From Clostridia bacterium (lineage in GTDB: Bacteria > Bacillota > Clostridia > Oscillospirales > CAG-272), in the NCBI GenBank assembly GCA_017456895.1, contig JAFTIN010000054.1, forward strand, positions 1 to 51,112: 51,112 bases of DNA, read 5' to 3'. A program made the position numbers and the translations under genes. This document shows positions 14,778 through 31,266 of this stretch, in pieces. Within the stretch, counting starts at the first letter, position 1. Each line of letters starts with the position of its first letter. The notes below the pieces were generated by a model. The model saw only the letters and a list, made by a program, of their open reading frames with translations, was not told where the DNA came from and did not search any database.

Positions 14778-15022
14778 GTCCTTGAGCCGCAGCTCAAGGA
14801 CGTAAATAACGTGGTACCACCTTGATTTGTAACAATGCAGAATTCATAATGCATAATTACCTCAATACGCTGTAACGGGCGTCAACCGTCGTAGCCTACA
14901 CACCTTTGCGGCTTCGGTACGAGCTCAGAGATGTATTCACTGAAAAGAACTCGCGCGCCTCTCATCACCCGGCAACTTTCTGTTTTCCATTCTTATCAGC
15001 TACTTGTTCTCGTCATAGCTTT
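14778..15022 (-). promoter_or_regulatory. T-box riboswitch leader of tyrS
   Basis: On the minus strand the leader holds the T-box sequence AAGGTGGTACCACG (about 14823-14810) and then a terminator hairpin GTCCTTGAGC / GCTCAAGGAC (14801-14778) with TTTTTTA. A UAC tyrosine codon in GAATACATC (14935-14933) lies on the 3' side of the stem I region and is the probable specifier. Uncharged tRNA-Tyr should favour readthrough. Between stem I and the antiterminator there is an AT-rich near-palindrome (AATTATGCATTATGAATT) unusual for T-boxes. Confidence 0.92.
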
Positions 15023-15028
15023 GAAGTT

Positions 15029-29143: not shown

Positions 29144-29149
29144 AAAGTA

Positions 29150-29358
29150 TCTTTGACGAAAGAATATGCAATCAGCCTCTTTTCAGAGAGTCCGCGGTTG
29201 GTGTGAGCGGACATGCGGCGTTGCTTTCCGCTTTCCGAGATTCGGTGATGAGCCGAGGGTTGCCGCCTTATAGGCTTTCGAGTGGAGACTACGGTCTCAA
29301 TTTGGGTGGTAACGCGGAGTCTCTTCGTCCCATTTTAGTGGGAGAGGACTCTTTTTTT
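29150..29358 (+). promoter_or_regulatory. T-box riboswitch leader, presumably serine-responsive
   Basis: AGAGAG and GGTTGGTGTGAG stem I elements are followed by a GAGAC/GGTCTC hairpin. Then come the T-box GGGTGGTAACGCGG (29304-29317) and a terminator GAGTCTC ... GAGAGGACTC with TTTTTTT (29317-29358). The nearest synthetase downstream is serS, so serine sensing is inferred. I could not fix the specifier codon; UCC occurs twice in TTTCCGCTTTCCG. A mobile-looking unit now separates it from serS. Confidence 0.88.
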
Positions 29359-29362
29359 GTTA

Positions 29363-29406
29363 GCCTTCTCCTGCGGGAGAAGGGGGACCGCTTGCGGTGG
29401 ATGAGG
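29363..29406 (+). repeat. Left inverted repeat of the DUF559 unit
   Basis: 44 bp made of two imperfect hairpins: CCTTCTCC-TGC-GGGAGAAGG and ACCGC-TT-GCGGT, followed by GGATGAGG. Matches the right repeat in inverse orientation at 42 of 44 positions. Confidence 0.9.
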
Positions 29407-29471
29407 AGTTAGCTCCACATAGTACAAAAGCTCTGTGTCTCTCTTATACGTACCTACCGTAAGGAGTTTTT

Positions 29472-29867
29472 ATGATACCATACAACAGAAAACTCATTAA
29501 TAATGCGCAAGAACTTAGAAAAAACATGACACCCGAAGAAAAGCACTTATGGTATGACTTTTTAAAGCGTCTGCCATGCACAGTGAAACGTCAACATAAT
29601 ATTGATAACTACATTGTGGATTTTTATATCCCCAAGAAAAAGGTAGTTATCGAGGTGGACGGCATACAGCATAACAGCGCAGAGCATATAGAAGCCGATG
29701 CCAAACGAGATGCAGTTCTCGCTGAATGGGATATAACGGTACTGAGATATTCCAACGAAAGTATAAATAAGAGCTTTGCCTATGTCGCACAGGATATACT
29801 GAACAAAATAGGCTTGAGCTTTGAAGATTTAAAACCGCTTACAAGAAGAGAGAAATATATTTATTAA
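29472..29867 (+). CDS. DUF559 (Vsr-like endonuclease fold) protein
   Basis: 131 residues. Opens with MIPYNRKLINNAQELRKNMT, typical of small DUF559 proteins. The nuclease-like core is NYIVDFYIPKKKVVIEVDG then IQH (Asp50, Glu61, Asp63, His67), the Vsr/PD-(D/E)XK arrangement. A perfect AAGGAG lies 6 bases before the ATG. It lies between inverted 44-bp repeats and between a T-box and serS, so it is probably co-transcribed with serS. It might be a nicking enzyme that spreads its own flanking repeats, or a repair nuclease; activity is not shown. Confidence 0.9.
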   Translation: MIPYNRKLINNAQELRKNMTPEEKHLWYDFLKRLPCTVKRQHNIDNYIVDFYIPKKKVVIEVDGIQHNSAEHIEADAKRDAVLAEWDITVLRYSNESINKSFAYVAQDILNKIGLSFEDLKPLTRREKYIY

Positions 29868-29900
29868 CAAAACTCAAATTTGCGCTAATTCAGACCAACA

Positions 29901-29944
29901 CCTCATCCACCGCAGGCGGTCCCCCTTCTCCCACAGGAGAAGGC
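29901..29944 (-). repeat. Right inverted repeat of the DUF559 unit
   Basis: Inverse copy of the left repeat with two differences. Hairpins ACCGC-C-TGCGGT-like and CCTTCTCC-TGT-GGGAGAAGG read on the minus strand. Confidence 0.9.
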
Positions 29945-29976
29945 TTATGAAGTAATTAATTTCAAGGAGAAATAAA

Positions 29977-31266
29977 ATGATCGACATCAAATTTTTAAGA
30001 GAAAATCCCGAGATCGTGAAGCAAAATATCCGCAACAAGTTCCAGGATAACAAGCTTCCTCTCGTCGACGAGGTTATCGCTCTTGACGAGCAGCTTCGCC
30101 AGAATAAGAAGAGAGCGGACGACCTCCGCGCAAACAGAAACAAGGTCTCCAAGTCCATTGGTATGCTCATGGGACAGAAGAGATTTGAGGAGGCCGAGGA
30201 GGCTAAAAAGCTTGTTGCCGCTCAGGCAGAGGAGCTGAGGGCTTGTGAGGTGCTTGAGGCAGAGCTTGACGAGAAAGTCAAGAATATTATGATGATAATC
30301 CCCAATATCATCGATCCCACCGTACCGATCGGTAAGGACGATTCTGAGAACGTTGAGGTAGAGAGATACGGTGAGCCCGTGACTCCCGACTTTGAGATTC
30401 CTTATCACACCGATATCATGGAGAGATTTGCAGGCATTGACCTCGACAGCGCAAGAAAGGTAGCGGGCAACGGCTTCTACTATCTTATGGGCGATATCGC
30501 AAGACTCCACTCCGCGGTGATCTCTTACGCAAGAGACTTCATGATCGACAAAGGCTTTACCTATTGCATTCCTCCTTATATGATTCGTTCCGGTGTTGTT
30601 ACCGGCGTTATGTCCTTCGCAGAGATGGATGCTATGATGTACAAGATCGAGGGAGAGGATCTCTTCCTCATCGGAACCTCCGAGCACTCTATGATCGGTA
30701 AGTTCATCGACACCATCAACCCCGAGGCATCTCTTCCTTACACTCTCACCTCCTACTCTCCTTGCTTCCGTAAGGAGAAGGGTGCTCACGGTATAGAGGA
30801 GAGGGGCGTTTACCGCATCCACCAGTTTGAGAAGCAGGAGATGATTGTTGTATGTAAGCCTGAGGAATCTCCCGTTTGGTTTAACAAGCTCTGGCAGAAT
30901 ACCGTAGATATGTTCCGCACTCTCGACATTCCCGTAAGAACTCTCGAGTGCTGTTCCGGTGACCTTGCAGACCTTAAGGTCAAGTCCATTGACGTTGAGG
31001 CGTGGTCCCCCAGACAGCAGAAGTACTTTGAGGTAGGCTCCTGCTCCAACCTTGGTGACGCGCAGGCAAGACGCCTAAAGATCAGAGTGAAGGGCGAGGA
31101 CGGAAAGACCTATCTTGCGCATACCCTCAACAACACAGTTGTTGCTCCTCCCAGAATGCTTATTGCATTCCTTGAGAATAATCTTAATGAAGACGGCTCT
31201 GTAAACATCCCGCTTGCTCTCCGTCCTTATATGGGCGGCAAGGAGAAGCTCGTCCCCACAAAGTAA
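29977..31266 (+). CDS. serS: Seryl-tRNA synthetase
   Basis: Class II synthetase charging tRNA-Ser, 429 residues. An N-terminal coiled-coil arm (about residues 30-100) binds the tRNA long variable arm. Motif 2 is SPCFRKEKGAHGIEERGVYR and motif 3 is NNTVVAPPRMLIAFLENNL, ending in GSVNIPLALRPYMGG. The motif 2 loop (AHGIEERGVYR) differs from the common bacterial AGxxxRDTRGLIR form and represents a divergent SerS branch. AAGGAG precedes the ATG. It heads a run with gmk-like and MazG-like genes. Confidence 0.97.
   Translation: MIDIKFLRENPEIVKQNIRNKFQDNKLPLVDEVIALDEQLRQNKKRADDLRANRNKVSKSIGMLMGQKRFEEAEEAKKLVAAQAEELRACEVLEAELDEKVKNIMMIIPNIIDPTVPIGKDDSENVEVERYGEPVTPDFEIPYHTDIMERFAGIDLDSARKVAGNGFYYLMGDIARLHSAVISYARDFMIDKGFTYCIPPYMIRSGVVTGVMSFAEMDAMMYKIEGEDLFLIGTSEHSMIGKFIDTINPEASLPYTLTSYSPCFRKEKGAHGIEERGVYRIHQFEKQEMIVVCKPEESPVWFNKLWQNTVDMFRTLDIPVRTLECCSGDLADLKVKSIDVEAWSPRQQKYFEVGSCSNLGDAQARRLKIRVKGEDGKTYLAHTLNNTVVAPPRMLIAFLENNLNEDGSVNIPLALRPYMGGKEKLVPTK

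Follow-up and report, generated by a model that had tools for sequence, protein, structure and literature searches.

What is a small nuclease gene, enclosed by inverted repeats, doing in the leader of a seryl-tRNA synthetase gene? The question is raised by a contig of a Clostridia bacterium, analysed over its whole length of 51,112 nucleotides (the window), in which a DUF559 unit is placed between a T-box terminator and serS. The T-box leader (29144-29335, plus strand; Rfam RF00230, 85.6 bits, E 6e-19, under the Rfam gathering score of 93) is read as host sequence that predates the insertion, and serS (29977-31266, plus strand, profile match) is the host gene downstream. A second T-box leader occurs in the window at 14793-15025 on the minus strand (93.3 bits). 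The whole unit spans 582 bp (29363-29944, plus strand) and comprises a left arm (29362-29410, plus strand), a ribosome-binding site AAGGAG read from the sequence (29461-29466, plus strand), a DUF559 nuclease gene of 131 codons identified by its ORF and a PF04480 profile match (29472-29867, plus strand), and a right arm (29897-29945, minus strand).

The arms are 49 nt each and 94% complementary, with a core (29362-29406 versus 29901-29945) identical at 43/45 positions. They form the longest and best-matched inverted pair listed at most 2 kb apart in the 51-kb window; the runner-up among the pairs listed within that distance is 36 nt at 72%. Structurally, each arm consists of two hairpins, an 8-bp outer stem and a 4-bp inner stem (fold z -3.0 and -4.4), located at 29364-29383 (outer) and 29387-29398 (inner) in the left arm, followed by an inward-pointing tail GGATGAGGAG, and at 29909-29920 (inner) and 29924-29943 (outer) in the right arm, whose tail also points inward. 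The inward tail of each arm is GGATGAGG. An earlier note on this DNA had described 44-bp inverted repeats (42/44 identical), each a double hairpin, around a DUF559 gene between the T-box terminator and serS, and this description is confirmed. It had also reported TTA on both outer sides. The triplets are present (29360-29362, a candidate 3-bp target duplication, and 29945-29947), but as a duplication they are not general: an exact 3-bp flanking repeat was found by script in 1/32 units with clear ends (L103, likewise TTA), the script having placed the ends of the window unit inside the stem, and setting these by hand brings the count to 2/32 against a chance expectation of ~0.5. A general target-site duplication was therefore rejected.

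By homology, the encoded protein is predicted to be a single-domain nuclease of the Vsr / EDxHD / PD-(D/E)XK fold. Profile search places it in PF04480 (90.5 bits, curated cut-off 20.6), and it is homologous to the solved structures PDB 3hrl (E 7e-29) and 3r3p (E 7e-6). Its predicted catalytic residues are intact: among the conserved positions, D50, D63, H67, R79 and R92 are invariant in 90/90 DUF559 proteins, and E61 and D76 are found in 89/90. The profile search returned no PF01797 (Y1_Tnp) match in this protein, no intron or intein was noticed at the gene, and the 131-aa protein has no extra DNA-binding region.

Relatives' serS leaders reveal what the site looks like when empty. SerS is present in 57/60 genomes of the genus; 30 loci were obtained, of which 29, including the window's own, have readable leaders. 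A T-box motif occurs in 20/29 of these, the remaining nine being uninformative. The distance from T-box to serS is 673 bp in the window; in the other 19 T-box leaders it is 78-182 bp, too little to accommodate a DUF559 unit. Base-level resolution of a close empty site comes from one relative, the closest (G134, SerS 96%), which is alignable end to end along the T-box leader of the window; its terminator T-tract runs directly into the serS ribosome-binding region, with neither unit nor arm. The comparison of leaders with and without the unit, suggested in the earlier note, thus yields empty leaders, the closest of them free of arms. Judged from this alignment, the unit would have been either gained in the window's lineage or cleanly lost in G134. 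Three relatives' leaders have one short arm-motif match each, 319-365 bp upstream and outside the gap between T-box and serS. In another locus (L118) the contig ends 98 bp before serS and opens with arm-like sequence, so that another element possibly sits upstream of its serS. A further candidate empty site, for a unit adjoining lysC in G143, was discarded, the neighbouring esterase gene being found in no relative and synteny being broken; arm motifs occur within the 520 bp adjoining lysC in 4 of the 29 relatives' loci scanned.

The window's genome (81 contigs, 64.75% complete) contains further copies. Contig C18 carries a second DUF559 gene close to its end. One side of this gene has an arm, and the stretch between its other side and the contig end has an arm-like fragment. 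A 60-base arm query gives 14 matches at E <=10, 12 of them with E <0.001, including the window's own two arms, and contig C52 carries an inverted arm pair (151-268) without a DUF559 gene. No PF01797 match was found in this 64.75% complete genome, though arm repeats are present.

Across the family, PF04480 occurs in 56/118 genomes, with up to 6 matches per genome. The 90 DUF559 loci, together with the window and L017, contain 94 DUF559 ORFs. When flanking inverted repeats are scored, 52 of the 91 scorable DUF559 ORFs exceed all 131 control ORFs taken from these loci (medians 18 versus 9, control maximum 13.5), although some high scores, those of L023 and L082 among the 52, are not arm-like. In a replicate set of 80 named loci, a score of at least 18 is reached by 42/79 DUF559 ORFs versus 4/340 controls, which reach scores up to 70. 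By strict arm patterns, arms are found on both sides of 33 DUF559 ORFs, on one side of 38 and on neither side of 23, versus both sides of 0 and one side of 38 among 250 other ORFs of the same loci. The link between repeat and DUF559 is therefore strong elsewhere in the family (52/91 above all controls; 33/94 versus 0/250 both-sided), and the arms near DUF559 point their tails inward in 93 of 108 cases. The same strict patterns place an arm within 400 bp of 0/26 Y1_Tnp-like ORFs (from 30 loci, four without a usable ORF; one locus, L330, has an arm-like match elsewhere). With no arms at these ORFs and no PF01797 match in the window's genome (64.75% complete), a RAYT as the enzyme of these arms was rejected as unsupported. 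In L050, a RAYT-like ORF (~2107-2667) is found outside a type-B DUF559 unit, at a distance of some 230 bp, and the arms do not flank it.

Arms were also sought irrespective of genes. The type-B/C pattern occurs in 35/118 genomes, and its reversed-pattern control in 0. Among the matches listed, 38 type-B/C pairs lie tail to tail within 1 kb. Of these, 27 have short loops of 20-26 bp and no gene, so that the search for the repeat alone, also suggested in the earlier note, did reveal gene-less dimers, while 11 have long loops of 345-347 bp and contain DUF559 in 11/11 cases; type-B/C pairs in other orientations, again among the matches listed, contain DUF559 in 0/5. The type-A pattern is found in 48 genomes and its reversed control in 2, some single matches being plainly chance. 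Type A or B/C arms are present in 46/56 genomes with DUF559 versus 15/62 without a DUF559 match (p 2e-10), and some of the matches in these 15 are plainly chance. Gene-less derivatives with the same ends, as insertion sequences and MITEs have them, thus exist in the form of the C52 pair and the type-B/C dimers.

Arm type follows protein clade. Of 90 DUF559 proteins of 95-170 aa, 60 could be assigned an arm type and 30 could not. On the tree of the typed proteins the five arm types require 5 changes, where the minimum is 4 and shuffled labels average 32.3, an equally low number being reached in 0/200 shuffles; support is weak for 22/57 inner branches of the tree, and part of the clustering comes from near-copies. 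Counted per type, A, C and E change once each, B twice, and F (4 rows) three times; taken by itself, type F clusters no better than shuffled labels do (25/500 as good). Several clades, with a different arm type apiece, can inhabit one genome (A, E and F in G085; A and B in G088). Two type-A rows, the second copy of the window's genome and L054, stand apart from the main type-A group.

For a nuclease so often paired with a matching double hairpin whose gene-less dimers are scattered, the best reading is that it serves this repeat as its enzyme. We therefore consider it likely that the DUF559 unit is a REPIN-like mobile palindromic element whose enzyme would be a Vsr/EDxHD-type nuclease that binds, cuts and moves it. 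The window unit would represent the full-length member, with two inverted double-hairpin arms, tails inward, around the DUF559 gene, and the gene-less arm pairs with a ~23-bp loop would be its non-autonomous derivatives, in the way that REPINs relate to RAYTs. The nuclease would recognise the arm type that belongs to it and make a cut or nick there; the unit, or a gene-less derivative, would then be copied or moved to new intergenic sites, with host repair or replication probably completing the process. That DUF559 is the enzyme of a short palindromic mobile repeat, as the earlier note had proposed, gains support from association, dimers and co-divergence, from which we infer arm recognition, cutting and transposition by the protein.

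REPIN/RAYT is the closest known kind: the elements of the layout are shared, and the Y1 transposase is not. The REP/RAYT analogy drawn in the earlier note extends to layout, gene-less dimers and co-divergence of enzyme and repeat. In both systems, short-spacer inverted palindrome dimers are dispersed between genes (here the 27 type-B/C dimers among the matches listed), and the same repeats flank the enzyme gene. According to PMC8049555, genomes with a RAYT carry more repeats, and arms are likewise commoner in DUF559-bearing genomes. Unlike the RAYT, a Y1 tyrosine transposase (PF01797), DUF559 is a PD-(D/E)XK/EDxHD-type nuclease; its arms are double hairpins, often with several enzyme genes per genome, and its gene lies inside the dimer. 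No consistent GTAG tag was seen at the palindrome ends (window arms and 39 unit ends, by eye). The MITEs of insertion sequences resemble the present system in that gene-less inverted-repeat elements occur beside gene-bearing ones, but DUF559 units have neither a transposase fold nor a general target duplication. CGTC-tagged REPs, palindromic repeats reported without a dedicated transposase (PMC3733652), are likewise palindromic but are not the same repeat as the DUF559 arms. The CGTC-REP core was dropped as a candidate, with only scattered single hits near DUF559 in the fetched loci and no link. No report of a link between DUF559 and a palindromic repeat was found in the literature searched, which was mostly without subscription papers and bioRxiv preprints, and such a link may be in print elsewhere.

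The main rival is homing, in which DUF559 would cut gene-less dimers and its gene would be copied into their loops by double-strand-break repair, the arms serving as homology and spreading by other means. Several observations point this way: the gene takes the position that the 20-26 bp loop has in a dimer, some DUF559 genes adjoin a complete dimer (L048, L378), and at one site a gene-less palindromic element in Shinella corresponds to DUF559 plus a palindromic element in Sinorhizobium. The fold is also homologous to that of PDB 3r3p (E 7e-6), a 'mobile intron protein' that we take to be I-Bth0305I. I-Bth0305I is described as an EDxHD homing endonuclease in PMC3943268. The EDxHD homing endonucleases and DUF559 thus share a homologous catalytic domain and the character of selfish nuclease genes, whereas the window gene is flanked by arms, encodes 131 aa and has no noticed intron or intein. 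Although the gene occupies the loop of an arm dimer, the closest empty serS site (G134) is armless, which speaks against homing as the only route. The tracking of protein clade by arm type, moreover, requires a protein that acts on arms generally, and type A, E and F units show flanks that are unrelated on both sides: in 26 pairs of units at least 65% alike, the two 100-bp flanks are 0.58 and 0.57 identical, against a random baseline of 0.56. Homing into dimers is accordingly judged unlikely as the explanation of the units.

In type-B units the left flank is mostly near random, whereas conservation is frequent on the right (0.7-0.9 for the pairs shown); by eye, the conserved right flank is common to 10/13 type-B units, one of them in part only. 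Four type-B units are nested in larger elements, which have inverted ends AAAACTGTCCTTTAGAGT and carry a variable cargo ORF (L030 539-2014; L032 124-2018; L034 1299-3172; L040 1294-2402). With units inside larger elements or sharing a right flank, the spread of type B need not be its own doing, and because larger elements can carry the unit, type B is a weaker case of independent movement; the repeat-first test (27 short-loop and 11 long-loop pairs) rests on types B/C, B being the flank-sharing type. Within type B, both protein and arms are conserved: the genes have a median dN/dS of 0.05 (61 usable of 66 pairs), and in 12 units identity is 95.3% for the left arm and 99.3% for the right arm, compared with 93.8% at codon positions 1+2 and 68.6% at third positions. 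The arm identity could come partly from gene conversion with dispersed arm copies. Longer ORF versions in type-B units start within the left arm.

These larger elements, and the RAYT-like ORF ~230 bp beyond the unit in L050, are what would be expected if another enzyme (IS200/RAYT or another transposase) moved the palindromic elements and DUF559 were cargo. Such a passenger role is improbable. Arm repeats occur in the window's genome, 64.75% complete, alongside no Y1_Tnp match; the Y1_Tnp-like ORFs of the family are without arms within 400 bp (0/26); and cargo status leaves unexplained both the tracking of clade by arm type and the presence of DUF559 in 11/11 of the long-loop pairs listed.

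Beyond the family, the association recurs in several lineages. Searches of plasmids and phages gave 28 hits, and 12 DUF559 loci were fetched and read without scored control ORFs. Arm-like inverted repeats surround DUF559 in 6/12 of these (Azospirillum, two Deinococcus, Pseudanabaena, Sphingomonas and Sphingobium), and no such arms are found in the other six (two Synechocystis, E. coli, Photobacterium, Sinorhizobium and one phage record, which has a dimer-like repeat upstream of DUF559 only). The unit lies in the hpa operon of both Deinococcus species, at a different junction in each, and the operon is without DUF559 in D. deserti, D. ficus and D. radiophilus; D. radiodurans also has no DUF559 there, and D. 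wulumuqiensis retains a short DUF559 remnant at one junction. An empty orthologous site, as expected of a mobile element, is thus found both at serS (G134) and in the Deinococcus hpa operon. For Azospirillum brasilense no empty site was found, the segment being kept in 7/7 matched Azospirillum records (99-100% covered).

In two orthologous Sinorhizobium loci (L378, L379), DUF559 lies between two copies of a ~131-bp palindromic element, one copy being shortened in L379; a query with these copies matched 127 plasmid records, mostly over the repeat in the rows shown, and many Rhizobiales plasmids carry elements of this type. At one shared site (L152/L158), Sinorhizobium has DUF559 plus a palindromic element and Shinella a gene-less palindromic element. 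The site comes directly after a terminator-like hairpin. Two further loci show no arms at DUF559 (L377) or repeat stretches without a clear pair (L380). In the class to which the genome of L233 belongs, 9/20 small DUF559 ORFs versus 0/17 controls score at least 15, and 7/30 DUF559 hits fall in ORFs of 656-1104 aa. In L279 and L284, DUF559 lies directly upstream of an ORF that, to our eye, resembles cas2.

It could be argued that DUF559 is kept for the host, as a nuclease of Vsr-like repair or with structure specificity, for which the arms are regulatory or processing sites. The Caulobacter protein VsrA shares the DUF559 domain with the window protein and is likened to Vsr, and it is required for the DNA damage response of Caulobacter without ScmA methylation (PMC12907096). 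The E. coli relative YcjD, used as a PD-(D/E)XK member in PMC1189080, belongs with PDB 3hrl to the same family as the window protein but has no arm pair: only repeat-like stretches lie downstream of ycjD, and a stretch GGGGAGAGGGTTAGGGTGAGGGG follows the gene. The sapF-ycjD-fabI segment (L146, L157) is at least 80% covered in 3362/5426 E. coli genomes; two other E. coli that were read have efflux genes after sapF in place of the ycjD segment. The E. coli control genome gave no PF04480 match, although the K-12 record L157 annotates ycjD as DUF559. As a general account of the armed units, a host function is hardly probable, given a patchy presence (56/118 genomes of the family, at most 6 matches per genome), sites that differ between species and unrelated flanks. 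An adaptive arrangement at serS, with the nuclease expressed by T-box read-through at serine starvation, would fit the position between terminator and serS but can be set aside as most improbable, with no room for the unit in the 19 other readable T-box leaders of the genus, G134 included, and with the other units read sitting in other contexts.

The REPIN-like reading of the window unit may extend further. We put forward, tentatively and with somewhat less than even confidence, that DUF559 proteins serve as the dedicated mobility enzymes for palindromic repeats of one class, which occurs in several phyla and includes dispersed repeats of Rhizobiales, Deinococcus and cyanobacteria. In it a small restriction-like nuclease alone, without a classical transposase, would drive the spread of the element by cutting its cognate double hairpins, with one hairpin type per clade. 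We know of no enzyme for these dispersed repeats. The proposal would assign a function to a widespread but uncharacterised protein family, and an enzyme to palindromic repeats that may be without their own; the match between arm types and protein clades offers a recognition code that can be tested directly. If true, a single small nuclease would represent a new way to run a mobile repeat.
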